From contig NC_055987.1 in the NCBI RefSeq assembly GCF_018446385.1, positions 9,757,705-9,821,704 of the forward strand: a DNA stretch of 64,000 nucleotides, in the 5' to 3' direction. Position numbers and translations under genes: made by a program. Positions 20,906-43,012 of this stretch are shown here, in pieces (position 1 is the stretch's first letter; every line of letters begins with the position of its first letter). Source of the DNA: Zingiber officinale. Lineage: Eukaryota > Streptophyta > Magnoliopsida > Zingiberales > Zingiberaceae. The notes beneath the pieces are model-generated. The model was not told the DNA's origin and made no database searches. It saw nothing but the letters and a program-made list of their open reading frames with translations.

Positions 20906-21129
20906 ACGAAAAGAATTTGGTACTAGTTGAGGGAGAGGAACGCGGAAGTAGTTACAAACTTCAAGGACAAAGGGGTGGATAGGAAATCGCAGGTCAGCCA
21001 CAAACTGGTCTCAGAACAAGCAGATGGTGACGGTCGGCGGGTAATTTGGCCGATCGGACGAAGAAGCCAAAATAATCTCATGATCATAAGGGATTTCAAA
21101 GGTGTTTCTAAGACTTTCAGCGTCACCCG
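20906..21129. other. Junction sequence, nothing recognised
   Basis: Lies between the truncated Tat integrase and the truncated gag of element A. No coding frame of note. Probably deletion-scarred element sequence. Confidence 0.4.
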
Positions 21130-21899
21130 CATCGGACCGTCCTTTTGTTGCGTTGGTGTTTTCTTGACTGCGATCTAAATTTATTAGTTTTAATAAATTT
21201 ATTTAACTTCCATACCAATAGTGCCACTTCAGTTTTATTGATAGATGCTTTAGAATTGGGATCGTCCATCTCGGCTTGTAGAGCAACATTGAGATTTGCC
21301 TTCTCTATTTGTTTAGGTTCTGCAATTCGAGACTCGTGAAGTTCAAATGTAGAAAATAAATTGTCCTTAGAGATGTAGTATGCATCTACTAAGGACGCTC
21401 ATTCTGGAGATCTTGGGAAGGCGTTGAGCGCGTACCAGATCGAGTCTTAGTTTGTTACCGATTCTCTGAGGTTGTTCAGTTGCGCTATCAACACCTTAAT
21501 TCTTGCTTGAAGTTGTGCTACCTTTTCGCCGTTACTCATCTGGAGATTTGTAAACTGAGTCCGGAGGATGTCCCGCCTTGCTAACTTCACTTCTGAGGTG
21601 CCTTAATGGAGCTCCAAGAATTTCTCCTAGAGGTCTTTGGTGGAGTCATAGCTTCCTATCCGACTTACCTCCTAGGGCAGCAGAACACTGAGCAGATGAA
21701 ACTCGGCTTTTCCATTGGCCACGAAATCGACTTGCTCCTTCTTCGTCCACTGATACTCTTTTTTGTCTTTTGGAGTTGTAAAATCAAATTTCATAGTTAG
21801 AAGAATGTCAAAATTCATTTTAAAAAATACCTCCATTCTTCGTCTCCATGTAGCGAAGTCTCCGTCGAATTTTGGGGGATGAATGTTTATTCCGGCCAT
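21130..21899 (-). pseudogene. SIRE-like copia element A, gag N-terminal part (truncated)
   Basis: Starts at ATG 21899-21897, 50 bp inside the primer-binding site. MAGINIHPPKFDGDFATWRR, MEVFFKMNFDILLTMKFDFT and VANGKAEFHLLSVLLP are the typical opening of copia gag of the SIRE/Maximus kind. Stops begin at about 21670. Farther on, LQAEMDDPNSKASIN-like and KTEVALLVWKLNKFIK-like text can still be followed to about 21170. The element ends there without pol or a 3' LTR. Confidence 0.75.
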
Positions 21900-21949
21900 C
21901 GTCTTGATCTTAATGCTTCAATCAGCAGTCAGTCCTTCTGAGGTGGTCT

Positions 21950-21964
21950 GGCTCTGATACCACT
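21950..21964 (-). promoter_or_regulatory. Primer-binding site of element A
   Basis: On the minus strand AGTGGTATCAGAGCC follows the LTR end directly. This is the initiator-methionine tRNA complement used by most plant copia elements. Confidence 0.8.
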
Positions 21965-22938: not shown

Positions 22939-23459
22939 TCTATGTGCTTAATTAAGCATTCCGAAGATAAGAACCTAACCTTATATCAGAAGCACACAAT
23001 TGACTGGTGCTAAGGAGATTGTATTTGAGATTTTCAACAAGTAATATTTTGTTAATAATAAAATCAGTTTTGAATTCAATATTACCTATATCAATTATCT
23101 TGAGTTTGTCATTATTTCCAAAGGCAACTGTTCATAAGCTTTTGTATCTTAATTGAGTGAATTTAGTGTAATTCCCAGTCATGTGTTTGAAGTAACTACT
23201 ATCCAATATCCACTTGGTTTCCTCATCAGAACCTTAAGAAATGAATATTGACTTGTGGCTTGATTCGGGTTCAGTCTCATCTTTTGATTCGTTCTCTAAT
23301 TCTGTTTCATAAGCCATCAGCACGAGGTAGTTGGAGTGCTTTAGTTCTCCGCCATCTGATTCATCTCTTGATGATTCATCCCACGTTGCTTTGAGGGCCT
23401 TCTTCTTCTTTAGATTCGAACAGTCAATCTTGTAGTGCCCCTTCTTGTTGCACCCAAAG
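22939..23459 (-). pseudogene. SIRE-like copia element B, gag end and protease (right half, split)
   Basis: Reading minus from 23459: the rest of a zinc knuckle (CNKKGHYKIDC), a Lys-rich and acidic tail (LKATWDESSRDESDGGELKH), then the copia protease start KWILDSSYFKHMTGN, VAFGNNDKLKIIDIGNIEF and ILLVENLKYNLLSTSQLC. The family DSG reads DSS here. It stops at 22939 where the LTR of element A begins. The 5' half of this element is at 43018-44948, on the far side of the 19.5-kb insertion. Confidence 0.8.
23455..23459. repeat. Target-site duplication CAAAG, left copy
   Basis: CAAAG precedes the LTR start at 23460 and is repeated at 43013-43017 just after the other LTR. The host codons for the gag zinc knuckle (CFGC) run across this site. 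Confidence 0.9.
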
Positions 23460-23689
23460 TGTTGGGGCAATTTCCCTAGGTCAAGTTTGACCAGTTTGAC
23501 TAAGCTAGAGTTAGGTCAAGCTTGAGTCGGGATTTGAGTTTTGATGTTTGACAATATATGGAAATTGCTAGGGCAATTATCCGTTTGACAATATATGGAG
23601 ATTGCTGGAGCAATCGTCCGATCGTGGAGATGGTCAAGGAATTGACCAGGTTGATGAGAAGACAAGTCAAGTGGGTTAATGTTGACCAG

Positions 23690-24320
23690 AGACTTGACCG
23701 AGTAAGTCCTAACTGGAGTTTAGGCAATGGGTAAGTCCTAACTGGAGTTTAGGCATCTGGGAAAGTCCTAACTGGAGGTTAAACAAGAGAGAAGTCAAGT
23801 AGGTCAAGGTTGATAGGAGACTTGACTAGGTAAGTCCTAACTAGAGTTTAGGCAATGGGAAAGTCCTAACTGGAGTTTAGGCATCTGGAAAAGTCCTAAC
23901 TGGAGGTTAGGCAAGAGAGAAGTCAAGTAGGTCAAAGTTGACAGGAGACTTGATTGAGAAAGTCCTAATTGGAGATTAGGCAAAGGTAAGTCCAACAGGA
24001 AGGTTGGCAAGAGTGAAAATCCAAGTAAGTCAGTGTTGACCAGACTTGGTGGTGAAAGTCCTGATAAGTGAGATCAGGCAATTGGAAAGTCCTAGTATAG
24101 CTAGGCAAAGGGAAAGTCCTGGTGAGGAGCCAGGCAACTGGAAAGTCTAAGTGTGATCTTGGCAAAAGGAAAGTCCTAGTGAGGAGCCAGACAATTGGAA
24201 AGTCCAAGTGTGATCTTGGCAAAGGAAAAGTCCTGGTGAAAAGTCAAGCAATTGGAAAGTCCAAGTGTGATCTTGGCAAAGCAAGTCCTAGGGTGATTTG
24301 GCTAGGAGAACCCGACAACT
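23690..24320. repeat. Array of short hairpins with covarying stems, 5' LTR copy
   Basis: Units of about 27-32 bp share a linker (GGAAAGTCC on the left, GGCAA on the right) around a small hairpin. Stems differ but stay paired: CCTAAC/GTTAGG (23895-23911), CCTAAT/ATTAGG (23964-23980), CCAAC/GTTGG (23992-24007), CCTGAT/ATCAGG (24060-24078), CCTAG/CTAGG (24091-24105), CCTGG/CCAGG (24118-24134), CCAAG/CTTGG (24204-24219). Larger hairpins with GTCAAGT/ACTTGAC arms lie between groups. Confidence 0.85.
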
Positions 24321-24514
24321 AGGTTGAGGCCGATGGAAGCTCCAGAAGGCAAGGCATGAAGGATGGGGAGATATTTGAGGGACACAAGGCTGATGGAGGA
24401 GGCTAGTTTGAGGTTGGTCGGGTGAGGCCAAATGCTAGGCATGGTGGCCCAATAGGTCACAGTTGACCGAGAGTTAGGTTGGGAGTTTGGACTTGAGTTT
24501 GAGTCAAGTCCAGG

Positions 24515-24900
24515 CTGGTCTATCGATCGGGCGATCGATTGAACCAGGGTTCAATCGATCAGTGAATCGATTGGAGTTTGCTGCGAAGGAAGAAATGGCC
24601 CAATCGATTGGTCGATCGATTGGGACCATATTTCGTGAGCACAAAGCCCTTCCCAATCGATCAGGCGATCGATTGGGAGCTGCCAATCGATCGGTCGATG
24701 GATTAGGTAGGGGTGTTCTCGCACGATCGTGAGAAGCACAGAATGCTTCTGGATCGATCCACCGATTGATCCAGATGTTCCCAATCGATCGGTCGATCGA
24801 TTGGGATTCGACCGTTGTGTAGGTTGCAGGTGTTGGATGGCTAGGATTGTGCGGATGTGACGTGGCAATCGATTGGGGTTGATCTCAATCGATTGGGAGC
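24515..24900. repeat. CAATCGATC hairpin module upstream of the TATA box, 5' LTR copy
   Basis: About eight near-palindromes, best at 24781-24804 (CCAATCGATC ggtc GATCGATTGG). One copy, 24751-24772, has GGATCGATC / GATTGATCC arms instead. Open frames across it, including a 162-codon minus-strand one, are rows of RSIDRS-like peptides from stop-free palindromes and not genes. Confidence 0.85.
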
Positions 24901-25375
24901 ACTGTATATAGCCTGAGCGGAGCGTTTTCTTCACTAGATCTTTGCGATCTTCTGCGCGATTCTTCTGCGACTTCTCTACAGCTCTCTCCATCAGTCTTGA
25001 GAATTCTTGGAGGCACGTCCAAGTCAAGAGGCGAGTCACAACAAGAAGAAGAAGCTAGGGTTAGAGTTTACTATACAAATCTTGTAAGATCTCCCTTGTA
25101 TTTGCTTCTCGTTATATTCTTGTTGTATTATGAGCTTGTAAGGCTTCTCCGCCTTCAGTAGTTACCATAAAGGAGTGGTTTTTATAGTGGAGGGTGTGTG
25201 AGTGTGTAGATCCTTGGACTAGTCACCTCTTCTTGAGGTGGATACCAAGTAAATCTACTTGTTAGCGTCGTGTGTGTCTTGTACTTGTATTTCCGCTGCA
25301 TATCATCATCAAGACGACGCAAGGAGCACGACGAAACGCTATTCACCCCCACTAGCAGGCACAAAGGTCCTAACA

Positions 25376-25390
25376 ATTGGTATCAGAGCG
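25376..25390 (+). promoter_or_regulatory. Primer-binding site of the gag-only element
   Basis: ATTGGTATCAGAGCG starts immediately after the LTR and matches the complement of the initiator-methionine tRNA 3' end. Confidence 0.85.
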
Positions 25391-25447
25391 AGGCCGCTCT
25401 TCTACAGACTAACCGCCAAGAGAGCAAGAAGCTAGAGGAAGAAGAAG

Positions 25448-27098
25448 ATGGAGAGTGAAGGACCTCTCGGATGGGACATCCGGATTCCTCCGCCATACGA
25501 CAAGGAAGACTTCACCTTTTGGAGGAATTGGCTGGAGACATGGTTCCAAATGGATTGGAACCAATGGGTTGTTTTGAGTGACCCATTTGAAGCTCCTACG
25601 GACAAGAAGGGTAAACGCCTCCGACCTCGGCATTGGACTGAAGAGCAACGAGAGCAGTCGGAGGCGGACAAGGAGGTAATGAAAATTTTGCATAATTTAC
25701 TACCTTCTAATATTTTGTTGAGTGTAGGTGAAATCACAAATGCAAGTAATCTTTGGAAAAAGATCATTGCCTATCATGAAGACCCTACACAAGTCCAAGG
25801 AGTGGAAGAGCCCAAGGAGAAGGGCTCATTGGTCCAAGAAGAGAAGGACTAATCCGATATTGACACGAGGTCAACATCCAAAGAAGAGGAGGAAGAAAAG
25901 ATGCAATCTGATGTTGGCGAGAGGTCAACATTCGAGGAGGAAAAGGAAGAGAAGGAAGAGGTGGAAGAGGTGGAAGAGGAGAGATCTTCCACATCCTCAA
26001 TAGATGAAGAAGTGGAGGAGTCCATATCCTCAAGTAAAGAGAAAGAAATAGAAGATGATGCCACCTCCACAACACAAGATAAATCAAATGGAGGATTGAG
26101 TGCTACCCCTACAAGCAAAGGTATAGAAATTTACATTGTAAATAATAAAAATCATATCATTTGTTTTGAGTGTAGGGAGCATGGGAACTACAAGAGTAAG
26201 TGTCCCAAATTGGCCAAGAAGAAGGGCCAAGTAGCACCCAAGGGCAAGGAAAAGCTCAAGGAGACAATCCTCACAACAAAGAGAAGCAAGGAACACATTG
26301 TGTGTTTCTTGTGCAACCAAAATGGACATTATCGAAGTCAATGTCCAAAGGGGAAGAAGTCAGTTAAAGTCAAAGGAGGAAGCACAAATCAAGGGGGAGC
26401 TTCTAAGAGCAAACCCAAGGTAACTTTTAATAGTGTAATTCCTTTGAGTCATGATAAAATGCATGTTAGAAATAATTCTTATCACTTTAATGTAAATTAT
26501 CATGAAAATAGAAAGCATGATAGCTTTAAGGGAAAATACATTCCTCCTCATGCTAGAACTACCATACCTAAGGTTAGGAAGGTAGATAACAATTTAGGCA
26601 ATAACTTTAAGGATTTTAGATACATGCCTAAATATAGAAATATTCAAGGATTCGATAAAAAACCAAAAATCTAAGGATTTATAGAGTGAAAACCAAGTAT
26701 TGAGGACAAGACTTGATAGTTTAGAAAGGACCTTAGTAAGAATGGAAAACATGCTTAGGGTTCAAAATGAGCATCACCTAGGGAGAACTAGACAAGAGTC
26801 ATCCAATGACTATAGAGGTTTGGGATACAAACCCAAAGCCAAGAAGGATGTGACTTCCTTTCATAGGGTTCCACATAGCTATGGAACCAAACCTAGGACT
26901 AGTGGTCAAGCTAAAAGTACAAGAGAAGTTGTCCCTAAGAGTACTTTTGCAAAGACCAATGTGACTAAGACTTCTAAGAAGTCTAATAATGTCACAAAGA
27001 AGGTCACAAGGGAGGTCATCCCTAGAGTTGACTTAGTAAAGGTGACTAAGGCTCCAAAAATGCCAAACAAAGTCACAAAATGTTACAAGGGGAGTTAG
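25448..27098 (+). CDS. Gag of the gag-only element, interrupted
   Basis: Opens at 25448 (MESEGPLGWDIRIPPPYDKE; FWRNWLETWFQMDWNQW). A TAA at 25850-25852 interrupts it, but the same frame resumes (MQSDVGERSTFEEEKEE and a long acidic run). Two zinc knuckles follow at about 26162 and 26302. The first reads CFECREHGNYKSKC, with Asn where CCHC needs His; the second, CFLCNQNGHYRSQC, is intact. The frame breaks in an A-rich stretch near 26660 and continues in another frame with a short coiled coil (VLRTRLDSLERTLVRMENML) and a basic Thr/Lys-rich tail. Gag forms the particle and binds RNA. The start context and the single stops suggest recent decay. No pol follows. Confidence 0.75.
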
Positions 27099-27375
27099 CC
27101 CTAGGAGTGACCTAGTAGAAGTGGCTAAGGCTTCTAAGAAGCCTAGAAAGGTTCTTAGGAAGGTATCTAGGGAAGTTATCCCTAGTGAGTACCTAGAGCA
27201 TCCAAGGAGCACCAATAGGTATTGGGTTCCTAGGAACATATTCTCTACACCCTAGATGAGTTTAGAGAGTGTCAACTCCAATTGGAAAGGTAGTTAACCC
27301 AACCTTGGTAAAGTTGACACTTGAGAGCATTTTCAAAGTTATTGTTAACTTTTGAAAATGAAAAGGTTTATTGGG
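27099..27375 (+). other. Gag tail remnant and start of the non-coding region
   Basis: A last in-frame stretch ends near RYWVPRNIFSTP at about 27218-27252, resembling the NLYWVPKTYLI end of the gag of element D at 63.38 kb. The sequence then turns non-coding. Confidence 0.45.
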
Positions 27376-28290
27376 TTACTCTTTGAAAGAGTGATATATG
27401 TGACAAAATTTGAAGAATTGAACTCAATCTAAATTGGCATACTTAAGAAAAGTATAAGAAAAATTGAGTTAGAATTTTGATACTTTCTTAAGGAATTAAG
27501 AGAAAGCTCATGCTTTAATCAAATGTGATTAAGCCTTGAAGGGCAAAAAGGTGCCAAGTGTGAGGATTTGAAATTAGGTTAAATTAGCACACTTGAGAAA
27601 GCAAAAGTAATGTCAAATTTAGAATTCGGCATTTTCTTATGGAATTAAGGGAAATGTAAACTTTAATCCAAAATTATCACTCTTGGAAAGAGTAACAAGT
27701 GCCAAATCTTAAGGAATTATGGTTGAATTAAATTGACACAATGTGAAGAAACATAAGAAATACCAAATTGGAGTTTTAATATTTTCTTAGGGTAATTAAA
27801 GGAAAATCTAGGTCCTAATGTAAGATGTTTACTCCTTGCAAGAATAAGTTGTGCCAAACTTTAAGAAATCACACTTAATGTAAGTTGGTACACTTGGAAA
27901 AATGATAAGAAATGTCTAGTTGAGATATTAGTATGTTCTTGAGGGATTAAGAGCAACATTAAGTTTCAATCTAAATGTTTGATCCTTAAGAGGAGTAATT
28001 TGTGTCAAAGCTTGAGGAGTTGAATTTAATTTAAATTGACACATTTAGAAAATGATAAGAAATGACAAGTTGGAATTTTGGCATTTTCTTAGAAGGTTAA
28101 AGGCAAATCTAAGCCCTAATTTGATTTCATTTACTCTTTGAAAGAGCAAAATGTACCATACTTTGAGGAATTTATTTAATGTAAAATGGCACAAATTTAG
28201 AAAGGGAAAAAGAAATATCAAAATTGGGTTTGACACTTTCTTGATGAAATTGGGCAATCTAGGATTTAATTTTAAGGTTTAGCTAAGGTT
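27376..28290 (+). repeat. Imperfect tandem array, about 150-bp units, six copies
   Basis: Units begin near 27376, 27530, 27677, 27831, 27981 and 28131. Each has in order: a CTCTTGAAAGAGT-like small palindrome, a GTGCCAAA word, GAGGAATT, an AATTGGCACACTTGAGAAA block, AAGAAAT, a TTGGAATTTTGACATTTTCTT block, GGAATTAAGGGAAA and a CTTTAATC word. Divergence between units is high (roughly a quarter of sites by eye). Confidence 0.7.
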
Positions 28291-28646
28291 TAAGGATACT
28301 TAGATAGATTATCTAGGTATATTTTGTTTATGCTAAAATGCCATGATTGTTTGCCCATAATATGTCATGACATCATATTTATTTTTTGCATTCATGATTA
28401 ATATGAAAAATATAAAAATACCATGTCATGTCATACATACATCATGTAACTATAAGAAATTTTCTTTTGAGAATTCTTTCTTTTTGATGTATGTCATAAC
28501 ATATCATGCATTATGTAATTTGCTTGTAATTAAGGACAAAAGATATTTACTAAGAATGGTAAATATCCCAACAAGTAGGATTATACCAAATGACATCCTA
28601 GGTGGATGATCATAAGTTTCATAATGCCTAGATAGATATGCATGAT
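28291..28646 (+). other. Internal non-coding sequence of the gag-only element
   Basis: AT-rich with CATGTCATG-like words; no gene seen. Broken at 28646 by the Athila-type insertion and continued from 39190 or 39195. Confidence 0.6.
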
Positions 28647-30438
28647 TGGTGTTAACCATTTTACATGTCACTTGACACATCAAATTAATAAAGATTGAAA
28701 CTCATTGTAATTAAAGCAAACACGTGTAGTAAAGAGTCCCAAGTCATATTTTTCCAAGGTTAACTAGTTAATGTGTGCTAATTCTAAAATTGGTTCCAAT
28801 CAAGTTATTACGTTAACAAAATCAATTTAACTTTTCCATTTAATTCACACTTCAAATTGAATGCTTACAAGATCACAAATAAATCAAATAATGTCCATTC
28901 TTACCTAATCATGATTAAACTTCTCCTCATCACATTTTCACAACTAATTGAGCATTATTAATTCAAATTCTTCAACCAAACTAATTTACCGATCTCATAC
29001 ATGTTCAACAACTTTCCACTGAGGTAAACAATCAATAACTCACATTAACATCCAACCTTAAATCTTCTTAATAGTGATAATGAATCCAAGATATAAAATA
29101 ATTGTTTTCCTAGACTTTGAATTGGAATTAAGCCTTAACTTGTAGAAACTGAAACATATAATGAAAAAAACTAGAATTAGATTGCAACAAAGTTAGAAAC
29201 TAAACTTGACTAATCATTACAAAAGTCTAAGGTATCAAAATTTCATATCAGGAATTAGAAATCAGGCATGGGGTTTGCAAAGAAAATTCAAACTAAAACT
29301 GAAACAACAAATGGAACTCAACGATTAAAGTGCAAGCTACCTATCAGATCTTCAGATCTGAGCAAAGGCAAACACAATTCTAAAACAAAATGAAAGAAAA
29401 CTAAACCCTAGCATTCCACAAACTCCAAACCAAAACCAATCTTCTCTATTCTGCCGTAACAACAGAAATGCATCAGAAACCTCCCCTCAACACCCAACAA
29501 CGATCACTAAGCTTACAACTATCATCAGAAGGCGCACACGGCTCTTGGAAACCTCCCCTCAAGCTCACATCTATCTAATAAACTCACCAGCCGAAGAAAA
29601 CAGAGCATGGATCTGTTATTCACAAACCAATCCAATTGATCAGATTGAGCTAGCTTGCTATGGAATGACGATCGAAAAGATGATCAGAAGCTATCGGAAA
29701 CCTCCCCTCAAGCTCTGGTGACTGTGAAAATCGCTGAACAAGAAACCTCCCTTGTTCAGGATCGCGACGATGAACAGACCCACGGCGTGCCGAGAAACCT
29801 CCCTCAAACACTCTCTGATCGCCGGAAGATGGACGTCGTCAGCTCAGAATCGTCGTCGTCGGAGAAGAAAAAGAATCGAATCTGGAATTGAAGAATGGGA
29901 ACTCGACGCTGCGACGGAGAAGATGAAGACACTGTAGAAGAAATCGCGACCGAGCCCAAGGAAGCACTGTAGCTTCTCAAACGTTTTAAACCTCTCCTCA
30001 TTTGATCGGACGATCCGGATTGATTTGGGCTGGATCAACGGTTGGATCATCTCGGATCTGAATCAAAACTTCCGGATCTTCATCAATGGACTGGATCTGC
30101 TCCTCATTAGGTCGGATGGACCAGATGCTTGACGGATGGCTCAGATATGCTTGATTGTAGATGAACGGTCCAAATAGCTCCAAGGTATAATCGCCTCATT
30201 AAGCCCTTGATTAAAGTCCAAATGCGGTCTGATTTGATCGGGTCCATGACCCTTTTGATGTCTACAAAATAAGAATCAAATATTAGCACCAAATACCATG
30301 AAAATTAGCTAATTTGTAATTAGGTCCAAAATCAAATGCAATATTGAGATATGATGTAAAATGGTAGATTAAGCTATAAAAATATCATTAAAACATGCAT
30401 TATGAATCAAGATAATATAGCCAAAATCATGGTTATCA
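28647..30438 (-). mobile_element. 3' LTR of the Athila-type element
   Basis: On the minus strand TGATAACCATG to GGTTAACACCA. Contains five copies of a GAAACCTCCC(CTCAA) word on the plus strand between about 29475 and 29805, and a short frame (MLWNDDRKDDQKL...) that recurs in the other LTR because the LTRs are duplicates. I do not consider that frame a gene. Confidence 0.8.
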
Positions 30439-31400
30439 AATCCCCCACACTTAATCTTGGACGTCTCGTTCAAGTAAGGAAAACTAAAAATCACCTCCAC
30501 ACAAATTCCCCTAGCAATACCTAAAAGATGGTAAGAAGTAATTAACTAAGGTCATCTTAAAGATCACAAACAATCATGAATACAATCCAAACAATAATCA
30601 GTAGGTATGGTAGTTTCAATCCAATTGACAAATTAAGCAAGTTGCAATCTCACAAGGTATGTACCTATTCTAGCACTTACACTCAAAACATGTATTGATG
30701 GATCTCACTCAATGTCACTCACAACATTTCACTACCATAAGCTTGCTTATTTTCTAATTCTCCGCCACTATAAACATAGCATACATGAATTAAAAGGATT
30801 TAATCAACAAGAATTGAAATGGAAGCAAAAAGAACAATGAAAGTGAATGAAATGACAAAAGAAAAGAATTCAATGAAGAAAATGAGAGATAAGAGTATTG
30901 GAGGAATATACTTGATGAGTTGACCAATTTGATGTGAAAAGAGTTGTATACCATTTGTCATTACCAATTCAACATATCAAGCTAACCTCTCCTTCAATTT
31001 AATGGCAAACAAATAATCTTGATACTCTATCTTCCACTTGATACTCTCTTGATGTGCCATTTTTCAAAATTTTTCACTGTATTTTAACTGTCTTTCCACT
31101 TCAATTTCAACATTTGGAAACAAATCTCACAACACGTATCCAACACCCTCCCCCACACTTAAAATTTGGCCGTCTCGGATAATAGAAACACCATGCTTCC
31201 CAATGTATTAACACTCTAGATGGCACTGATTTTTCCTTTCTGCATAATTCTTTTTTCTTCATTTCTCTGTTTAATGTGTTTAATTTCATGATCCGAAATC
31301 TGTACAGAGAAATGGCACTCCACAGGTTTAAAAATGACCAAAAATTTGTAACAAGAATTGGCATGCATTATACAACATTCTCAATTCTGCTTCACAGTTT
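30439..31400 (-). other. 3' internal region of the Athila-type element, near the polypurine tract
   Basis: The polypurine tract is the minus-strand reading of AATCCCCCACACTT (30439-30452). A second such word (CTCCCCCACACTTAAAATTT) lies near 31148, and a third, TCTCCCACACTTAAACTTT, near 35400; each is followed by a CGTCTCG- or CATCTAG-like word. No open frame of interest. Confidence 0.5.
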
Positions 31401-34400
31401 GTCTTCAAAATTTGATTCCAGATCATTGCAGCTACCCCCCTTCTAGCGCCACCCCGCAGCACTAACAATCATTCTGCTGAAAACTTTTTCCTGCTCCTAA
31501 ATTCCTATAAGCTTCAGATTTTGACTCTAAATTAACAATCATTGCAGAAATTTAATTCTGTTGTTGGCAAGCAAATTTCTGCATTTAGGTATCCATAGCT
31601 ACAACTTACTTGAAAAGTGATTAGAAATCAGCAAGCATCTAATTATCTTAGCTCTTACGCTTCTCCTTTTCAAAGATCAGATTTCAATTTCAATTTCAGA
31701 ATTTCCAGAGCTTCAGAATTTAAGATTCAAAACAATCAAACTTCCCTTGCTCTATACTCAAAAACTAAAGTAGCCTTGGTCACAGAACTCAGCTTCAATC
31801 AACATAACTCCAAAACTCAGCAATTCAAATTAATTCTGCAACTCATAGTTTCAGAATTCAGTTGCTCGAATTTGATTCAAAATTCAGTAAGAAATTAAAG
31901 AGTTGCAGCTCCAATTCAACCTGCAATCAAATTTAATCTCTAACTCAAAGAATTAAGGATTCCAAATGGTTAAGGGGTTCATACTTTCATATTCAAGCTC
32001 AATTTTAAGGAACAAATTCTGATATAGCTCTTAATGTGCATCACCATTCAAACAATAAGTTTCAAACTTAATGTAGTTCCAAAATCTTGAAACAACTCAG
32101 CATTTCTTCAATAATGCTGACAACATCAGTTACATCAGTTACAAATCTCTTAATTTCAGAATCTGGAGATCAGCAGTTGGCACAAGAAATACATTCTATT
32201 ACAACAACGATAGTTCAGATTTCCAGAATTGATCAGTATCTAAAAGTTAATCTTCAGCTTCATTAATCAAGATTTTAACCTGAAAGTAGATATCATCTAG
32301 CATCAAATTAATAGGACTAAAATTCAGTTATGTTCCGGATAGAAGAAATATGAAAAATTGGCACAAAACATGTACTTATTGGTACATTGATTCCAACTCT
32401 GCAATTCTGCAAAATTCCAACACTTATATAGTTTTTGTTAACATCCAAAAATTGTCACAGTACATTGATTCCTGGTCTGTTCAAAAACCACTTGAACCAA
32501 CTAATTATAGCCAAATCAGTAAGCACATATCAGTTTGCAGTTAACAGAGTACAATGGTATTTGATAAATTGCCCCATCTCTGCACTACAATTTCGCAACA
32601 ATCCAGTAGCTAACTAAAATTCAGCAACTGCATTCTTCCAAGCTTTTGAGTAAATAACATCAAATAACATTGCAAATCAGACATTGAGCTTGAATTTGAT
32701 TTCTGCAACAGATTTTGTTACTGATTTCTGATACAACTTTGATACAAGGTTTAATTTCTGAATTGCAATCTGTTTATCCAGTATCCTCCTTATCCCAGCA
32801 GCCACTCCATGGATTTACTACATATTAGCACTGTCAATTCCAGATTTCAAAATTCAGCATATAGAATTGAGCACACTGATCAAAGAGATGCACTCCTTGT
32901 ACAATTCCTCCTTCCCTCTTTCTGTTTCTGATTCTACAGATTCGAATTAATTATAAACAAAGGTCATTTGGTGGTGTGATTATTGCATGACTCTAAGGAT
33001 CATTGGCACCAGCTGTCAGCTTTTCTGAAATTCAGTTTTAGAAACTTGAATATGTGCAGTTCAATTTCTGTCGATATTGTGTACTAGTGCATTACAATGA
33101 AATGTTTAAATTCAGCTGGTTGCTTGAAAAAAAAAATTGTCTTAGCATAACCTCTCATTAAGTTCTGCAAACTTAAGAGATAGAATCAAACAAAACATAT
33201 ACCAGCTGGAAAAGGATTCTGCTGTAATCTTTAAATAGGTTCGGAACTTAACTCTTTCCTGAAAATTCCAGCTTAACAATTTAGCAACAAGATTTAGTCA
33301 TACAATCCCTTTCCAGTGCTCTGATTTCTTTTCTGTGCAGGAACTATATAAGCTGCTAATGATTCCAACCCTTAGTGTCAGATTCAGTTTCAGAGGTAAC
33401 GTCAAGTAATAAATTCAGAAATGAAACTGCATAAAAATCTTTGATTTCAGATTCCAGTCTCATGTTTGGCAATAAAAATAATAGGACTCCATTAAACACA
33501 AAGATGAACAGATGCAGTCCTTCAAGAGCTGGATTTTGATATTGCTGTACATATGAAATTTAGTTCAGTATCTACTTATCAGAATTAGCAAACAGGACTG
33601 GCACTAGCAGGATACAATTCCAACATTTCTAAATCCATTTCAGCAGCTCCATACGTATGCATTTCTGTTTAAAGATTTAGCTCCACATTTTGTATTGGCA
33701 CCAAATTCTTTTTTTTTAAAAAAAAAACTCTGTTGACCAAGATAAAAATCTATAGAACACCAATAACAATCTTGATCACAGTGAGTTTAATATTCTGGTT
33801 TCCTTTCTCTTGAAAAGTACATGGCTTATAATAACTCATTTTCCAAAATTAGCCCAAAAACAGTGATCTACAGATTTCACAAGCATGCTGGACAGATTCT
33901 AGCTACACTTCCATGATCCTTCTTTTCTTTTCTGAAATTACAGATATTCCAACTCACTGATTTAAGCTCTGAAATGCAACTGGCCGATTTAGCAACTTCA
34001 ACATTTGTAAACCTTCAGCAGCTCCTCAATTAATTCCCAGGTTCATGACAGTATCAGTACTGTCATTTCTTGCAGCCTGATAAGATTTCCTGCACATTTA
34101 TGTTCTTTCATTAATCTGATGCGAAATTACCATTTGTTTCCTCACACTTTAGAATTTCACAAGATCTTCTCCTCAACTTGATATTGCTTCTGAATTTTGA
34201 TATACCATAGCTAGCTGCATTTGTTTTCTTTTCTATTTCTACAAAGAATCCAGTTTTAACATATCCTTTCAAGTACTCTAATTTCTGCACTCCAGCACTT
34301 TGATAACAGAATCTGAACTCATCTCCTTTATATATTTTCATTTATGCACTACTCCAACTCTTCAATTATTGAAAATCTGCACCAAGAAATGGGCACTCTA

Positions 34401-35440
34401 CAGATTTGAACTTGGCACATATATTTGGCACATTGAACTTGCATGCATCCATTTATCAGCAATTGCAATTTGCTTCCAGAATTCAGATTCTCTTCCAGCA
34501 GCTTCAATTCAAAGTCATTGATGAAAGAAAATTAGTAATCCAGAATCCAATTCAGAGTTAAGTTCTGAATTCTGGTTTCCAGATTCTAGTTTCAGAATTT
34601 CACAATTTTCAGCTTCCACTCCTGATTTTCTTCATCAAGGGACTCACACCATTTCTTGTAGCAGAGTTCCAGAACTTATGATGTTCAATTCAGAGAAACA
34701 TCAAACATCAAACTGGTGCATAAAAAATGAATACAAACTTGATACAACAATTAAAGTTGCATTCTGTTTTCCAGCTTTTCTCCTAACTGTTTTTAGTGTC
34801 AATTACTGCCCTTTTCTTCAACTTTTCAGAATTTATAATGTTATTTCCAAGTGCTTCATTAGTGGAATGATATTTAACAACTAAATTTCTAATTCTGATC
34901 CATTTTGATCAGATTACAATAGCTACAAAAACCTCCTGTTTCTGCATTTCTGTGTTCTACATTTCTATCTACTTATATTCAGAGCCAAAATGTGAATTTG
35001 GCATCAAAGTAATAGTACTCCACAGATTGGAATTGGCACCCACAATTTGCAAATCCAATTCACAGCTCAACTCTTGACTCCTCTTAAGTTTCTGTTTTGC
35101 ATTACTGCACTTTTTTCTCTGCAAATTCTGCACCAAAAATTCCAGGAATTCAAATCATAAAACAGATTAGCATCCTTGCTCTATGTATCACTATTCTTTT
35201 CCATGCAGTTATGCACCTCATTATTGCCTCCCAACAGCAACACACACTCACTGGAAAATGTCTATCAGTAGACCTCACTGCCTTAAGCAATTTGGGCACT
35301 TGATAATGCTCCAACAATTCCAATAAATCACATACAATCAAAAATCAATTCTCACAAAGCCATCTAAATCCTTCATCATCCTTAAACATATACCAATCTT
35401 CTCCCACACTTAAACTTTTGTTCATCTAGTCAAGCCAACT
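31401..35440 (-). repeat. 4-kb field of degenerate CAGAATT / TTCTGCA words
   Basis: The stretch is non-coding and built from short words that recur without fixed period: CAGAATTC, TTTCAGAATT, TTCTGCAA, CAGCTTC. A longer block resembling GGCACTCCACAGATTTGAA with TTGGCAC close by recurs near 31313, 34391 and 35010. This looks like an old, scrambled repeat field in the 3' part of the element. Confidence 0.5.
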
Positions 35441-35897
35441 CATCAAGATTTCAACCAACACTCCAAATGAAATGAAGACAAAGCAAGGTGATCAAGAGTT
35501 AGAATGCTAGATAAAAATGTTTCAAGAAAAATTGTGAGGAAGGAAATTTGGAATTTATGAGAGAGCAAGAATGATAAATTTCCTTTATTTCCATGCATAC
35601 AAATGCTATTGTGACTTTGAAAAGAAGCAAAGCAAGTTCTAGAGTTTAATTTGCTATGAGTGCATGCCACACAAGAAAAAAAAATAATTAGGTAAAGGCT
35701 TAAAGTGGACCTCACTAGGTAATATTCATGCAAACAAGCTCAACTAATCAAATTGGAATCCACCACCAAATTAACCAATATCATGTGAAAAAGCATCCAA
35801 TCATGTCACATGATCTAAATTTGATGATCAAATTTAAGAAGCTTTTACCATCTTAAAAATATTACTTAAGAAATTCCCATAGAGACTTTTATTCAAA
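35441..35897 (-). other. Non-coding sequence downstream of the element's single ORF
   Basis: AT-rich; a minus-strand frame at 35443-35733 has no recognisable feature. Lies between the end of the ORF and the degenerate repeat field. Confidence 0.5.
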
Positions 35898-36908
35898 TTA
35901 AAATGCCATGTAGTAGCAAAATACAAAGTATGAAACTAAAGAAATGCATAAAAAGAATTTATTAACAAAGCATGAATTAAAATACAAAAGAAACCGAAAT
36001 TGGAACCAACTCCCCTTTAATTCCGGCGGTCGAAGAAGATTTAGCAACAAAATCCACACCGGGAATGGAGTACTTTTGGTTGCAATTAACTTCTTTTTAT
36101 TGACCATTTTTCCATTGCAAATTATCTTTGGAGGTCTGAGGCGGTTCAGTGTAAGCATCCACTCCGGAAGCTTGTACTCTCCTACAACATCAATAAAGGA
36201 AAATAACTCCCACACGCATGTGGGGTAAAAAGATAGGAGAATATTAGTGTGGGTATAAAATTTATCAAGAATTGAATCACAACTAATGAAATCAACAAAT
36301 GGTACCTCTATGGAATTTTCTGATAAATCACAAAAATCACTAACCTTGTCATCTTGAAAGGTACCTGGAGTGGTGATTGTTACCTCCTCTTCATCAAGAT
36401 ATGGCTCAAGCTTTTGTTCTGGTGAATGTTCATCCTCATGTAGTGATTCTTGGGTACTTGGCTCCATAGCAGAAGTCCCTACACTTACATCTTCAATTCT
36501 TGGTGGTTCTTGAGGTAATGCTTCCAGTAAGCACTCCCCTACACTTAAATCAACTTCCACAATTAAATTTTCACTTCCTGCATTATTCACAACATCTAGA
36601 GCAACATCATTAGTAGAATCAAAAATATTTTCAACTACATCATCACAACAATAAAAAGTACTTAAAGAATCAAATGAAGAAGTAGATGCAGTGTCAGGCC
36701 TGAGAAGATATCCACAATCCATCTCTTCACTGATGGTTTGGGTTTGTAATTGATGAATGGATGATGTAATCTGATCCAAATTATTCTGTATATTCTGTAT
36801 CCTTGAGTATTGCTGCTCTTGATGCTCATTCATTTGTTGCATAATTTCCCTGAGTTTCCATGTTGTCTCATCCATTCGAGGTTCATTCTGTTGAAAAAAA
36901 TTTGACAT
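35898..36908 (-). CDS. Single ORF of the Athila-type element, gag-like N-part and acidic middle, function unknown
   Basis: 336 codons from the ATG at 36908. The N-terminus (MSNFFQQNEPRMDETTWKLR, then EIMQQMNEHQEQQYSRIQNI) is a Gln-rich coiled coil of the kind found in the C-terminal part of Athila gag. The middle is strongly acidic with repeated Glu/Asp and Pro (LPQEPPRIEDVSVG, EDEHSPEQKLEPYLDEEEVT). Two near-repeats end in LNRLRPPKIICNGK and LNLLRPPELKGSWF. The C-terminus is hydrophobic (FFLCISLVSYFVFCYYMAF), possibly a membrane segment. Upstream in the same frame a readable stretch (ENYQCFQPEYQFYPSMDRQN) is cut off by one TAA near 36970, so the ancestral protein was longer by at least 60 residues. 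No enzyme motif. Confidence 0.5.
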   Translation of the reverse strand: MSNFFQQNEPRMDETTWKLREIMQQMNEHQEQQYSRIQNIQNNLDQITSSIHQLQTQTISEEMDCGYLLRPDTASTSSFDSLSTFYCCDDVVENIFDSTNDVALDVVNNAGSENLIVEVDLSVGECLLEALPQEPPRIEDVSVGTSAMEPSTQESLHEDEHSPEQKLEPYLDEEEVTITTPGTFQDDKVSDFCDLSENSIEVPFVDFISCDSILDKFYTHTNILLSFYPTCVWELFSFIDVVGEYKLPEWMLTLNRLRPPKIICNGKMVNKKKLIATKSTPFPVWILLLNLLRPPELKGSWFQFRFLLYFNSCFVNKFFLCISLVSYFVFCYYMAF

Positions 36909-37397
36909 AAAATTTGTTGAAACCTCTTGAAACCCATATGAACTCTGGTAGGCTAGATATGGCTCAACAAATTATCCATGTGCACTTTCATACCTGAAAC
37001 ATGAATTATCCACCCAATTAGCACTAAAATCATTAGAAAATGATTCATACCTATTTTGTCGATCCATGCTTGGGTAAAACTGATACTCAGGTTGAAAACA
37101 CTGATAATTCTCCATTCCACCTCCAAAATTCTGAAAATATGGATCCAAGCTTAAGAAATCTCCTGTTCTTCACTACAACACTAGAAATCAATGTTAGAAT
37201 ACTCAAATGCATAAAGTTTCAATCACATGAAAACATGAACAGTAAAAGCATTTAAAAATTCAAGAACTAATCAACATGAAAATACAAAAAGAAATAAGCA
37301 ATCGAATCAATCAAGATGCTAACAAATAAAATCACTCAATGATTAATCTAAAATTAAACACACATTGCTAGTCTTCCCCGGCAACGGCGCCAAAATT
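36909..37397 (-). other. Leader and broken ORF start of the Athila-type element
   Basis: The minus strand begins with the primer-binding region (complement of CCCCGGCAACGGCGCCAAAA, about 37378-37397) and an AT-rich leader. A frame with DPYFQNFGGG, MDRQNRYESFSNDFSANWVD and RYESAHG then runs into a TAA near 36970. Confidence 0.55.
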
Positions 37398-39189
37398 TGG
37401 TGTTAACCATTTTGCATGTCACTTGGCACATCAAATTAATAAAGATTGAAACTCATTGTAATTAAAGCAAACACGTGTAGTAAAGAGTCTCAAGTCGTAT
37501 TTTTCCAAGGTTAACTAGTTAATGTGTGCTAATTCTAAAATTGGTTCCAATCAAGTTATTACGTTAACAAAATCAATTTAACTTTTCCATTTAATTCACA
37601 CTTCAAATTGAATGCTTACAAGATCACAAATAAATCAAATAATGTCCATTCTTACCTAATCATGATTAAACTTCTCCTCATCACATTTTCACAACTAATT
37701 GAGCATTATTAATTCAAATTCTTCAACCAAACTAATTTACCGATCTCATACATGTTCAAAAACTTTCCACTGAGTTAAACAATCGATAACTCACATTAAC
37801 ATCCAACCTTAAATCTTCTTAACAGTGATAATGAATCCAAGATATAAAATAATTGTTTTCCTAGACTTTGAATTGGAATTAAGCCTTAACTTGTAGAAAC
37901 CGAAACATATAATGAAAAAAACTAGAATTAGATTGCAACAAAGTTAGAAACTAAACTTGACTAATCATTACAAAAGTCTAAGGTATCAAAATTTCAGATC
38001 AGGAATTAGAAATCAGGCATGGGGTTTACAAAGAAAATTCAAACTAAAACTGAAACAAGAAATGGAACTCAACGAATAAAGTGCAAGCTACCTATCAGAT
38101 CTTCAGATCTGAGCAAAGGCAAACACAATTCTAAAACAAAATGAAAGAAAACTAAACCCTAACATTCTACAAACTCCAAACCGAAACCAATCTTCTCCAT
38201 TCTACCGTAACAACAGAAATGCATCAGAAACCTCCCCTCAACATCCAACAACGATCACTAAGCTTACAACTATCATCAGAAGGCGCACACGGCTCTTGGA
38301 AACCTCCCCTCAAGCTCACATCTATCTAATAAACTCACCAGCCGAAGAAAATAGAGCATGGATCTGTTATTCACAAACCAATCCAATTGATCAGATTGAG
38401 CTAGCTTGCTATGGAATGACGATCGGAAAGATGATCAGAAGCTATCGGAAACCTCCCCTCAAGCTCTGGTGACTGTGAAAATCGCTGAACAAGAAACCTC
38501 CCTTGTTCAAGATCGCGACGATGAACAGACCCACGGCGCGCCGAGAAACCTCCCTCAAACACTCTCTAATCGCCGGAAGATGGACGTCGTCAGCTCAGAA
38601 TCGTCGTCGTCGGAGAAGAAAAAGAATCGAATCTGGAATTGAAGAATGGGAACTCGACGCTGCGATGGAGAAGATGAAGACACTGTAGAAGAAATCGCGA
38701 CCGAGCCCAAGGAAGCACTGTAGCTTCTCAAACGTTTTAAACCTCTCCTCATTTGATCGGACGATCCGTATTGATTTGGGCTGGATCAACGGTTGGATCA
38801 TCTCGGATCCGAATCAAAACTTCCGGATCTTCATCAATGGACTGGATCTGCTCCTCATTAGGTCGGATGGACCAGATGCTTGACGGATGGCTCAGATATG
38901 CTTGATTGTAGATGAACGGTCCAAATAGCTCCAAGGTATAATCGCCTCATTAAGCCCTTGATTAAAGCCCAAATGCGGTCTGATTTGATCGGGTCCATGA
39001 CCCTTTTGATGCCTACAAAATAAGAATCAAATATTAGCACCAAATACCATGAAAATTAGCTAATTTGCAATTAGGTCCAAAATCAAATGCAATATTGAGA
39101 TATGATGTAAAATGTGAGATTAAGCTATAAAAATATCATTAAAACATGCATTATGAATCAAGATAATATAGCCAAAATCATGGTTATCA
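37398..39189 (-). mobile_element. 5' LTR of the Athila-type element
   Basis: Partner of 28647-30438 and of equal length. Differences seen by eye are mostly C/T or A/G changes. Ends ATCATGGTTATCA on the plus strand, followed by ACGAT. Confidence 0.8.
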
Positions 39190-39734
39190 ACGATCCCTTA
39201 GTTTAGGGCAAAACCAACTATACATCTCACAAGAATCATAAGATGACTTGTGTGTGTTTTAATACACGTTAGATACAAGTGAGATGTTAGGATGGTGAAC
39301 AAAACTCAAGATGTTGATTTAGTGCATCTTGTTGAGTTTTAGGTTCATCAAAACACATAGTTATGTGGTTTCCAATCAGTGGGAAAGCCAATGTACAAGC
39401 CATGTGCATTGAGCCCAAAGAACATGGTTGGATATTGGTTTTGAAAATGATTTTAAAATATTTTTGAAAAACCTTGGTGAAGACTATCTTTTGATAGTTA
39501 TCATCATTGAATAGTTAGACACAAACTTGAAGAAAACACTAAAGTTTCTATAAGTTTTCAAATTTGTGTCAATCTTTGAAAATAAGAGATATTTTCATAG
39601 AAAACTATTTTTCCTTGATAAAGTATACCCTAAATAAGTTCTACATGAATTTTAATGATTTTTAGAATTTTGTAGAATTTTTGGAGAGTTTTTGAATTTC
39701 GCTGAAATTGAATTTCAGGAAATCAGAAATTCAA

Positions 39735-39935
39735 TCAATCAGCCGATCGATTGGGAAGCGACTTCCCGTGAATAGAAGGGTATTGAATCGATCAGCCGAT
39801 TAATTGACCCAGGCTGGATCGATCAGTGGATCGATTCAGAGGGTATTTCTACGAGCAGTAGCTTGCGGAATCGATCAATGGATCGATTAAAGTGATTTCA
39901 ATCGATTGAGTCCCAACTTCAATCGATTGGGAAGT
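39735..39935. repeat. GATCGAT palindromes in internal sequence
   Basis: Five near-palindromes (for example AATCAGCCGATCGATTGGG, then GGATCGATCAGTGGATCGAT) like those of the LTR modules but outside the LTR. They lie about 1.2 kb before the polypurine tract. Confidence 0.75.
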
Positions 39936-40469
39936 CTGATTTTAGCTTGGAAAGCCTGATTTTAGCACTTCAAGTCACTTCAAGTTCCAATAACCATTCC
40001 AAACCCCTTGGAATACATTTGTAGATATTTAGAGGGAGTTTTCATGATGAAAACAAGTATGGATTGTTTAAAAGAAACTAAAGTGAAGTTTAGGATAAGG
40101 TTTAGTTTCAATTTTGAATTTTGGAACCTTAAAACTTCAAGTTTTGATTTTCAGGGGTCATTAACTATTCCTATCCCTATGGTATACACCTGTATACATT
40201 TAGGGGGAGTTTTCATGTTGAAAACAAGAATGGATTGGTTAAGGTAGACTTAGGTGAAGTTTAGGTTGAGGTTTAGTTTCATTATTGAATTTTGAACCTC
40301 AAAACTTTGAATTTTGGTTTTCCTAATTATTTAGAAATCCCAAGTCATTGTTGGAGCAATGATAGAAGTTTGACCATGTTTTTAGGGGAATTACTCTTTG
40401 AAAACATAAAAATCTTTTCAAAGACCTTGGAAGGTGGGTTAAACCTTTGTGATTAATTAATACTCAAGG

Positions 40470-40790
40470 TCGAGTATTGGGGAGCAATGGAAGATTGGTT
40501 ATCTTCATTGCTAGGATGATATATGCTCTCGGATGAGCATTATGGAGTAGATTAATGCTCAAAGGGGAGCATTGGGTTAATGAAGGGGATCAGACCTTCA
40601 TTGGTAAAATGAAAATTACTCTTGGATGAACATTAAGAAGAGATTACTGCTCAAGGGAGAGCATTGAATACAATGAATGGGAGTTCATTGGGAAGTTGAT
40701 GCATGCTCTAGGATGTGCAGTGTGAAGTGAATTAGAGCTCAAGGGGGAGCTTTGACGATAATGAAGAGTATGAGATCTTCATTGTGGGGT
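40470..40790 (+). repeat. About 89-bp tandem repeat, four copies
   Basis: Units centre on a GCTCAAGGGGGAGCATTG word at about 40470, 40557, 40649 and 40739, each with a GATCTTCATTG-like partner and a CTAGGATGAGCAT-like partner. The word is itself a near hairpin (GCTC...GAGC). Confidence 0.6.
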
Positions 40791-41339
40791 TGTTAACAAT
40801 ATATAGGGTTGTCAACAACGTAGAGTTAACTCTTAAGGAGAATAGTTTATTTTCAGTTTTTGATGTGTAACAAAGAGGGAGAATGGAAGGCTAAGGTAGA
40901 CCTTCATCCCAAGTAGGGGGAGTTTGCCTAGGCCTTCATCCCAAGTAGGGGGAGTTTGCCCTCTAGGAAAGGGAGAGAATGAAGGAAACCTTCATTCATG
41001 CCTTGTCATGAAGAAGTTAAGGCTATGGGATTTAGCCTTGTGATAAAAAAGAGGTTAAGGCAATGAGATTTAACCTTGGTATAAGGAAAAGGTTAAAACT
41101 ATGGGATTTAGAGAAATTGTCAAACATCAAAAAGGAGGAGATTGTTGGGGCAATTTTCCTAGGTCAAGTTTGACCAGTTTGACTAAGCTTGAGTTGGGTC
41201 AAGCTTGAGTCAGGATTTGAGTTTTGATGTTTGACAATATATGGAGATTGCTGGAGCAATCGTCCGATCGTGGGGATGGTCAAGGGATTGACCAGGTTGA
41301 TGAGAAGACAAGTCAAGTGGGTCAGTGTTGACCGGAGAC

Positions 41340-41935
41340 TTGACCGGGTAAGTCCTAACTGGAGTTTAGGCATCTGGGAAAGTCCTAACTGGAGGTTAAG
41401 CAAGAGAGAAGTCAAGTAGGTCAAGGTTGATAGGAGACTTGACTGGGTAAGTCCTAACTGGAGTTTAGGCAATGGGAAAGTCCTAACTGGAGTTTAGGCA
41501 TCTGGGAAAGTCCTAACTGGAGGTTAGGCAAGAGAGAAGTCAACTAGGTCAAGGTTGATAGGAGACTTGACTGGGAAAGTCCTAATTAGAGATTAGGCAA
41601 AGGTAAGTCCAACAGGAAGGTTGGCAAGAGTGAAAATCCAAGTAGGTCAGTGTTGACCAAACTTGGTGGTGAAAATCTTGATAAGTGAGATCAGGCAATT
41701 GGAAAGTCCTAGTATAGCTAGGCAAAGGGAAAGTCCTGGTGAGCAGCTAGGCAACTGGAAAGTCTAAGTGTGATCTTGGCAAAAGGAAAGTCCTGGTGAG
41801 GAGCCAAGCAATTGGAAAGTCCAAGTGTGATCTTGACAAAGGGAAAATCCTGGTGAGGAGCCAGGCAATTGGAAAATCCAAATGTGATCTTGGCAAAGCA
41901 AGTCCTAGGGTGATTTGGTTAGGAGAACCTGACAA
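41340..41935. repeat. Hairpin array with covarying stems, 3' LTR copy
   Basis: Same order of stems as in the 5' LTR (CCTAAC/GTTAGG, CCTAAT/ATTAGG, CCAAC/GTTGG, CTTGAT/ATCAGG with one change, CCTAG/CTAGG, CCTGG or its decayed form, CCAAG/CTTGG). Some arms have taken single transitions since insertion, as expected of unselected LTR copies. Confidence 0.85.
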
Positions 41936-42139
41936 CTAGGATGAGGCCGATGGAAACTCCAGAAGGCAAGACGTGAAGGATGGGGAGATATCCGAGGGAC
42001 GCAAGGCTGATGGAGGAGGCTAGAAGGCTAGTTCGAGGTTGGTCGGGTGAGGCCAAATGCTAAGCATGGAGACCCAACAGGTCACAGTTGATCGAGAGTT
42101 GGGTTAGGAGTTTGGACTTGAGTTTGAGTCAAGTCCAGG

Positions 42140-42525
42140 CTAGTCAATCGATCGAGCGATCGATTGAATCAGGGTCCAATCGATCAGTGGATCGATTGGA
42201 GTGTGCTGCGAAGAAAGGAATGCCCCAATCGATTGGTCGATCTATTGGCACCATATTTCGTGAGCACAGAGCCCTTCCCAATTGATTAGGCGATCGATTG
42301 GGAGCTGCCAATCGATCGGTCGATCGATTGGGCAGGGGTGTTCTCGCGCCATCACGAGAAGCATAGAATGCTTCTGGATCGATCCACCGATCAATCCAGA
42401 TGTTCCCAATCGATCGGTCGATCGATTGGGATTCGACCGTTCGCAGGTTGCAGGTGATGGACGGCTAGGATTGTGCGGATGTGACGTGGCAATCGATTGG
42501 GGTTGATCTCAATCGATTGGGAGCA
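42140..42525. repeat. CAATCGATC hairpin module, 3' LTR copy
   Basis: Counterpart of 24515-24900, with the same eight words and single-base differences; the spacer after ATTCGACCGTT differs slightly. Confidence 0.85.
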
Positions 42526-43012
42526 CTGTATATAGCCTGGGCGGAGCGTTTTATTCGCTAGATCTTTGCGATCTTCTGCGCGATTCTTCTGCGACTTTCA
42601 CAGTGACTTCTCCACAGCTCTCTCCGCCAGTCTTGAGAATTCTTGGAAGCACGTCCAAGTCAAGAGGCGAGTCACAACAAGAAGAAGAAGCTAGGGTTAG
42701 GGTTTACTATACAAATCTTGTAAGATCTCCCTTGTCTTTGCTTCTCTTTATATTCTTGTTGTATTGTGAGCTTGTAAGGCTTCTCCGCCTTCGGTAGTTA
42801 CCGTAAAGGAGTGATTTTCATAGTGGAGGGTGTGTGAGTGTGTGGATCATTGGACTAGTCACCTCTTCTTGAGGTGGATACCAAGTAAATCTACTTGTTA
42901 GCGTCGTGTGTGTCTTGTACTTGTATTTCCGCTGCATATCATCATCAAGACGACGCAAGGAGCACGACGAAACGCTATTCATCCCCCTCTAGCGGGCACA
43001 AATGTCCTAGCA

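Follow-up and report, generated by a model that had tools for sequence, protein, structure and literature searches.

Mini-hairpins with complementary arm changes in the U3 region of a Sirevirus-like LTR retrotransposon of Zingiber officinale

In a 64,000-nucleotide stretch of the Zingiber officinale genome (hereinafter, the window), an LTR retrotransposon carries in its U3 region a tandem array of mini-hairpins whose stems differ between units and remain complementary. Matches to the frame of this array abound in the genome, its arms have changed in pairs, these paired changes took place before the insertion of the copy in the window, and an excess of hairpins runs along the whole element. An earlier account drawn from the letters of the window (the sequence-only reading) had noticed the array: its observation is confirmed and is stronger than was stated, and its interpretation is partly supported. 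It overlooked the Sirevirus-like identity of the element and the hairpin excess that runs through all of it.

Architecture and affinities of the host element

The host element lies on the plus strand between a 5' LTR of 1916 bp (23460..25375) and a 3' LTR of 1870 bp (41143..43012), the former recognized by its blastn match to the latter and by its ends, with CAAAG target-site duplications at 23455-23459 and 43013-43017. The LTRs are 91.8% identical across a match of 1811 columns (blastn), with 104 differences in 1848 aligned sites, which corresponds to about 2.2-4.5 million years at generally assumed substitution rates. The 5' interior (25376..28645, plus strand) contains a TGGTATCAGAGC-type primer site as well as gag-like ORFs, a CCHC knuckle and many short hairpins. 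A younger nested element (28646..39190), which has its own LTRs (28646-30439 and 37397-39190, 98.2% identical) and is used below as a control, separates it from the 3' interior, or linker (39191..41142, plus strand, 1952 bp), with octamers, palindromes at 39734-39930, hairpin repeats and a terminal purine tract, AGGAGGAG-AT, adjoining the 3' LTR. The nested element contains a 336 aa minus-strand ORF without a convincing Pfam match. In a genomic copy of the host (L143), a contiguous interior of ~5 kb without the nested element matches both host parts, and the two matches join at a single point.

The gag-like ORFs (134 aa, 257 aa and further short ones) have stops between them. A zf-CCHC zinc knuckle, at 21.5 bits against a cut-off of 20.8, is the sole Pfam match among the seven host ORFs scanned, a subset of those of at least 50 aa, and no pol domain was found in them. 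The combination of LTRs and gag without pol is that of the TR-GAG elements, and the host shows it both in these seven ORFs and in copy L143. It probably represents a non-autonomous gag-only LTR retrotransposon family, in line with the sequence-only reading, which had called the element gag-only. Searches for gag homologues returned two and one unnamed short ENA proteins, and Rfam gave no match at gathering scores over positions 23000-43500. The likeness to TR-GAG and LARD elements lies in the LTRs and the interior lacking pol; the host differs from them in that its structure spans the LTRs, the gag part and the linker, with the paired changes counted. Barley LARDs have a structured interior and conserved RNA structure.

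We compared the element with the hallmarks of Sireviruses. The octamer AGGGGGAG occurs eight times on the plus strand of the window, with four exact copies in the linker, one in the 5' interior and none in either LTR or in the nested element. A terminal octamer site lies in the right place, 10 bp before the 3' LTR, and reads AGGAGGAG, with one mismatch to AGGGGGAG. The AT/TG attachment site is present (..AGGAGGAGAT / TGTTGGGG). The terminal purine tract has an inverted repeat with perfect arms of 17 nt, the left arm ending 10 bp before the LTR and the right arm beginning at LTR base 80, deeper than the published average of 28 (PMC2829016); that study reports such a repeat in almost half of classic elements as well. 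At least eight palindromic boxes are found in the LTR 5' of TATATA, the CGG-CCG core being absent, as in Tnd-1. By eye, a C-rich stretch, TTCACCCCC, a candidate for the integrase signal, is seen close to the LTR 3' end. Of the large Sirevirus gag, with its CCHC knuckle and a coiled coil after it, the knuckle is seen, in ORFs interrupted by stops. The host shows most of the Sirevirus hallmarks tested and looks Sirevirus-like (Ty1/copia).

The palindromic boxes of Sireviruses, termed RM boxes, lie in the LTR 5' of the TATA box. They are reported from 13 of 21 Sireviruses and as absent from classic copia elements, with letters that vary between elements, with dyad symmetry and with a proposed role in promoter control (PMC2829016). 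The host resembles these accounts in having short LTR palindromes 5' of TATA, symmetry kept with differing letters and extra copies in the linker; moreover, the Tnd-1 RM box ACAATCGATTGT resembles the ATCGAT-type palindromes of the host (24516..24901, plus strand), which lie 3' of the array and directly before TATATA at 24905. RM boxes as described there are near-identical copies within an element, mostly with a CGG-CCG core, whereas in the host array a fixed linker frames at least seven different stems, which have no such core; its copies are neither nearly identical nor of one box type. With six core stem types at 5 bp (seven when the sixth pair is counted), we therefore treat it as a variant rather than a typical RM array. 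It looks like a Sirevirus-type palindromic LTR control region, of a known kind and in an unusual form.

In maize, a 2016 study is reported to have found an over-representation of small RNAs on palindrome-structured Sirevirus regions (PMC10760457, PMC5311732), and a tug of war that sets function against small-RNA recognition was proposed for these palindromes (PMC10760457). The host array is similar to the maize region in being a hairpin-forming, fast-evolving part of the LTR, the maize one being described as rich in matching small RNAs; the maize motif CACCGGAC..GTCCGGTG differs from that of the host. Among the titles and opening abstract lines listed in our search of the literature on Sirevirus palindromes and covariation, in which the 2016 study was represented by papers citing it, none deals with stem-swapping frame arrays, and we found no description of an element-wide hairpin excess that includes the gag region.

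Further palindromic features occur in the window. Two related copia-type LTRs, termed LTRb (1169-2260 on the plus strand and 22938-21963 on the minus strand), are 86% alike over the first ~325 bp and share the 3' third; in the middle, one LTR has TCGGTCGACCGA palindromes and the other TTGAGGGC..GCCCTCAA-like ones, which occupy the same slot, differ in letters and are still palindromic. The Vitis RM box CGGTCGACCG (PMC2829016) has five occurrences in LTRb. Another LTR, LTRc (44948-43668, minus strand), bears a U3 array at ~44850-44640 with the frame AAGTCC..GGCAA and longer nested covarying stems of 7 bp (for instance, CCAGCTA/TAGCTGG and CCAGATA/TATCTGG); a permutation test of its outer stems is weak, since 6 of 120 permutations pair as well as the real arrangement. 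Outside the host, 3776-4150 is a dense array of ATCGATC..GATCGAT palindromes. In a test of ATCGATC palindromes, the outer arms form 41 of 72 pairs, a value reached by 1886 of 100,000 shuffles and likewise weak. An AT-rich tandem duplication of 272 bp, with 95% matching, is found at 47721-48267.

The mini-hairpin array and the paired changes of its arms

The array extends over 23660..24310 in the 5' LTR and 41306..41920 in the 3' LTR (both on the plus strand), with one unit fewer in the latter. Each unit, of ~26-31 nt, starts with AAGTC and ends with G(G)CAA, and the slot in between holds a short stem with a loop of ~5-7 nt; four larger hairpin units of 39-40 nt are set in the same frame. The sequence-only reading had placed the array in U3, and its position 5' of the TATA box agrees with this. 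All seven stem types that it listed are found in the sequence, as are its larger GTCAAGT/ACTTGAC hairpins, which lie inside the same AAGTC frame. Of the extent it gave, 23690..24320, the array itself stands, but the start is nearer to ~23660 and there is a second copy in the 3' LTR. Its picture of complementary stems holds with respect to the paired arm changes but was slightly too clean, some units having decayed: perfect 5-bp cores are seen in 12 of the 16 units of the 5' LTR and in 8 of the 15 units of the 3' LTR. Watson-Crick pairs fill 141 of 155 core cells, and all departures at core pairs 1-5 are of the transition type (G.U or A.C). The units are kin by tandem duplication, with periods of 29, 57 and 128. 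Two 37-nt direct repeats at 23546..23619 (plus strand), present as a single copy in the 3' LTR, form the hairpins AATTGC/GCAATT and GATTGC/GCAATC, which are related by a paired change.

Hairpins with stems of at least 5 pairs and loops of 3-9 nt number 12 in 23660-24310, whereas 100 dinucleotide shuffles average 3.5 and never exceed 7. In the six core stem types 30 of 30 pairs are Watson-Crick, which is equalled by 1 of 720 re-pairings; when the 16 distinct raw core arm pairs are taken, decayed ones included, 67 of 80 are Watson-Crick, and none of 200,000 shuffles (mean 49.0) reaches this figure. We then aligned 15 units, using here and in the tree simulations one LTR copy per unit and omitting u5; some LTR boundaries in the computations are one base off. 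The share of paired cells (95.9%, raised because the better-paired LTR copy was chosen for several units), the cells with two-sided change (14) and the covariation score (0.503) were each reached in 0 of 500 shuffles, while the pairs with two-sided change (3) were matched by 168 of 500 and the further pair types (4) by all 500. In tree-aware simulations of independent evolution, 1 of 5000 runs on a tree of the linker and loop, and 0 of 5000 on a tree of the whole unit, match the pairing that is observed. These simulations, together with the fully paired cores, bear out the earlier claim that the arms change in pairs. Parsimony on the array units yields six paired changes of pair state, at pairs 3-5, and three one-sided changes, at pair 2, one of which occurs in a single LTR only.

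A comparison of LTR5 with LTR3 sheds light on the timing. Across the hairpin pairs, 19 have changed one-sidedly and none two-sidedly (for the array units alone, 10 one-sided and 0 paired among 75 pairs). The paired changes are therefore older than this insertion, and since then the hairpin arms have only decayed, singly, which is what the sequence-only reading had said of simple decay, namely that it hits the arms one at a time.

That reading had also considered that the array might be absent from other copies or that paired substitutions might be no more frequent than chance; neither is the case. In the 3.09 Gb genome the frame GGAAAGTCC..GGCAA has 47,859 matches (22,207 + 25,652), against 126 (55 + 71) for the reversed pattern. 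We collected 83 distinct inserts from the window and 60 loci, dropping inserts with a second AAGTC; the search pattern leaves pairs 3-5 free, and the loci were hand-picked, about one per cluster of 100 listed frame places with several listed places omitted, and every one of them comes from the initial 7.2 Mb of contig C1. In these inserts the inner pairs 3, 4 and 5 are Watson-Crick in 82, 83 and 65%, as opposed to 42, 53 and 36% with independent arms, and all three are kept in 40 of the 83, against a mean of 10.2 and a maximum of 18 in 1000 shuffles. At pair 3, with inserts counted once per locus (152), T-A occurs 79 times, A-T 50, T-T 5 and A-A 3; genome-wide, the T..T non-pair at this position has 418 matches as against those 47,859, for which the permitted gap range was slightly wider.

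The LTR hairpins outside the array show the same tendency. Across 30 copies there are 16 two-sided Watson-Crick cells (13 states) versus 2 non-Watson-Crick ones, whereas slid controls give 0-6 versus 6-24; the 13 paired states compare with 0-3 in the slid controls, with the proviso that ~5 of them lie in ATCGAT palindromes, where CpG decay in both arms can mimic a paired change from C-G to T-A. One-sided cells between copies number 201, versus the 16 paired ones. In the interior, paired states amount to 12 in the 5' interior (3 copies; slid controls 2-8), 7 in the gag part (0-4) and 7 in the linker when 12 copies are used (0-4); with 9 copies the linker gives 2 against 0-4, which is no surplus. 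In the interior the surplus of paired changes is modest, and everywhere most of the changes are one-sided.

Individual examples can be read in the window itself. The linker repeats at ~40450-40790 hold the hairpins ATACTC/GAGTAT, ATGCTC/GAGCAT and AGCTC/GAGCT, which are paired changes outside the LTR, as well as AATGAAGG/CCTTCATT and AATGAAGA/TCTTCATT, again with paired changes between repeats. In the gag part, the hairpins AGACTTC/GAAGTCT (26968-26984) and AGGCTTC/GAAGCCT (27128-27144) are one paired change apart. Beyond plants, a 15-mer of the array occurs at 6 places in viral and 66 in bacterial or archaeal contigs; when the LTR was compared with these 72 loci by BLAST, its ten best matches were 18-27 nt long and were taken as chance.

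Hairpin excess along the whole element

A census of hairpins with stems of at least 6 pairs and loops of 3-9 nt, set against shuffled sequence, gives 15 stems versus 3.0 in LTR5, 29 versus 8.1 in the 5' interior, 17 versus 3.2 in the gag part, 23 versus 4.6 in the linker and 14 versus 2.8 in LTR3. This amounts to a 3.6- to 5.3-fold excess over the gag-only element, gag region included. The nested element has no excess (23 versus 19.8), and the flanking parts of the window give 70 versus 47.5 (45-64 kb) and 49 versus 39.1 (4.6-22 kb). Once like stems are clustered, the gag part is still distinct (15, shuffle maximum 8), the linker is barely above its shuffles (11, maximum 10) and LTR3 is no longer distinct (6, maximum 6). 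Three internal pieces of other copies have 50 versus 12.1, 48 versus 12.3 and 33 versus 5.8 stems, and the 60 frame loci a 4.09-fold excess, compared to 1.48-fold at 20 evenly spaced control loci. One of the control loci, L155 (C1:82000000-82002400), has a 4.6-fold excess and is probably another such element. The presumed interior of the neighbouring copia-type LTRb element (16000-21950) shows no hairpin excess (0.96-fold), which makes it less likely that reverse transcription yields such hairpins as a general by-product and is taken as a point for selection at the level of the element.

Predicted folding was compared with that of the phage MS2 genome. In 150-nt windows the mean folding z is -3.07 for the linker, -1.95 for the 5' interior, -0.06 for the nested element, -2.70 for copy L143 and -2.89 for MS2; the array has a value of only about -1.1. 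The folding excess is similar on both strands of the host, and in the MS2 control the two strands also differ little (-2.89 versus -2.43), making the folding strand test weak. Genome-scale ordered RNA structure is a term used for RNA viruses; unlike these and MS2, the host is a DNA-integrated plant element whose RNA folding is predicted only. With this qualification, we put forward a proposal that we ourselves regard as rather doubtful: along its whole length, the gag region too, the RNA of this abundant family would form chains of short hairpins, with a predicted folding strength close to that of the MS2 genome, and these hairpins would keep pairing despite turnover of letters. Such a genome-scale ordered RNA structure might let the family alter its letters when attacked by small RNAs and still function.

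Selection for pairing, its competitors and significance

In our judgement the best reading, held tentatively at a little short of an even chance, is selection for pairing while the letters drift, in the palindrome-rich U3 of a Sirevirus-like gag-only element. In the tandem array with its fixed linker AAGTCC..GGCAA, short stems would be replaced by other complementary stems: during replication, selection would hold segments base-paired yet tolerate changes of letter, such that the hairpin rather than its letters would matter, while in an integrated copy free of this selection the arms would decay singly. By analogy, the likeliest roles may be the two proposed for Sirevirus palindromes, namely transcription control by the LTR and small-RNA recognition of the transcript; letter drift might perhaps aid escape from existing small RNAs. 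The sequence-only reading had suggested packaging, dimerisation or export, and no result points to any of these in particular. What counts against selection for pairing is that between copies one-sided changes far exceed paired ones. Nor does anything single out the RNA strand as the target of selection: among the one-sided changes between copies G.U, which selection on RNA should favour on the sense strand, has no clear advantage over A.C (108 versus 91 distinct states, p 0.26), and the folding excess is alike on the two strands. No clear signal came from the strand tests, and these two are weak, the former in that dead copies dominate and the latter by the MS2 comparison.

The foremost competitor, which we hold to be unlikely though worth serious weight, is arm-to-arm copying: template switching, likeliest in reverse transcription, would use one arm as the template for its partner and generate paired changes in one step with no selection for structure. 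Template switching is described as creating and repairing stems in DNA replication and in RNA genes (PMC8794818), and quasi-palindrome mutation is described from yeast (PMC3820800). Like the RNA hairpins of the former work, those of the host have short, perfect stems and arms that change in pairs; that work concerns DNA replication and RNA genes (PMC8794818), while the host is a retrotransposon in which the evidence for template switching is mixed. The stems are near-perfect, the excess being ~60 for perfect stems against ~5 for those with one G.U (host, at least 6 pairs; an rRNA control has too few stems), and the hairpin excess peaks at loops of 3-5 nt, which also suits copying. Moreover, by a hand count 4 of 14 paired changes in the repeated hairpins of the window are double transversions, for which the LTR ratio of 85:19 predicts 2.4% under independent hits and 18% under copying. 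Between copies, however, this transversion argument was not upheld: double transversions make up 6 of 32 paired states, which fits independent hits (~14%) better than copying (36%), given that transversions are 112 of 311 one-sided states (36%). Copying is further disfavoured in that no inverted loops were seen by eye in the array, no paired change has arisen since insertion, and the presumed interior of the neighbouring copia-type element is without an excess.

Rather improbable is the view that the array consists of dyad-symmetric DNA boxes bound by protein, in which paired changes would preserve the half-site symmetry for dimeric transcription factors. The location of the array 5' of TATA is in its favour, such a role having been proposed, and dyad symmetry reported, for RM boxes (PMC2829016), as is the equality of the folding excess on both strands. 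But at least seven half-sites with loops of ~5-7 nt in one array are unlike a single binding specificity, and the hairpin excess and paired changes reach into the gag part and the linker, far from the promoter. A process of steady template switching on the integrated copy, during replication of the host DNA, would follow the stem-repair logic outlined in PMC8794818. It is very unlikely: after insertion there were 0 paired and 19 one-sided changes, compared with 6 paired and 3 one-sided changes of pair state among the units (Fisher p 0.0002). Lastly, ordinary tandem-repeat decay, with complementarity by chance or by the shared ancestry of few units, could draw on the tandem kinship of the units, on the two of five alignment measures that fall within shuffles and on the one-sided decay of the dead copy, but we regard it as refuted, unless the frame search is badly biased, by the core re-pairing, the other three alignment measures, the tree simulations, the 83-insert and 30-copy tests and the rarity of T..T at inner pair 3.

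Why Sirevirus-type LTRs keep hairpins despite possible small-RNA silencing is posed as a question in PMC10760457. Tens of thousands of frame matches with many interchangeable stems in one genome constitute a natural experiment, in which intact stems can be set beside broken ones with respect to their age, their small RNAs and their transcription, and selection is separable from arm-to-arm copying. Covariation in a repeat family need not imply a classical RNA gene. The hairpin richness of the entire element is the more open feature, beyond the array itself.
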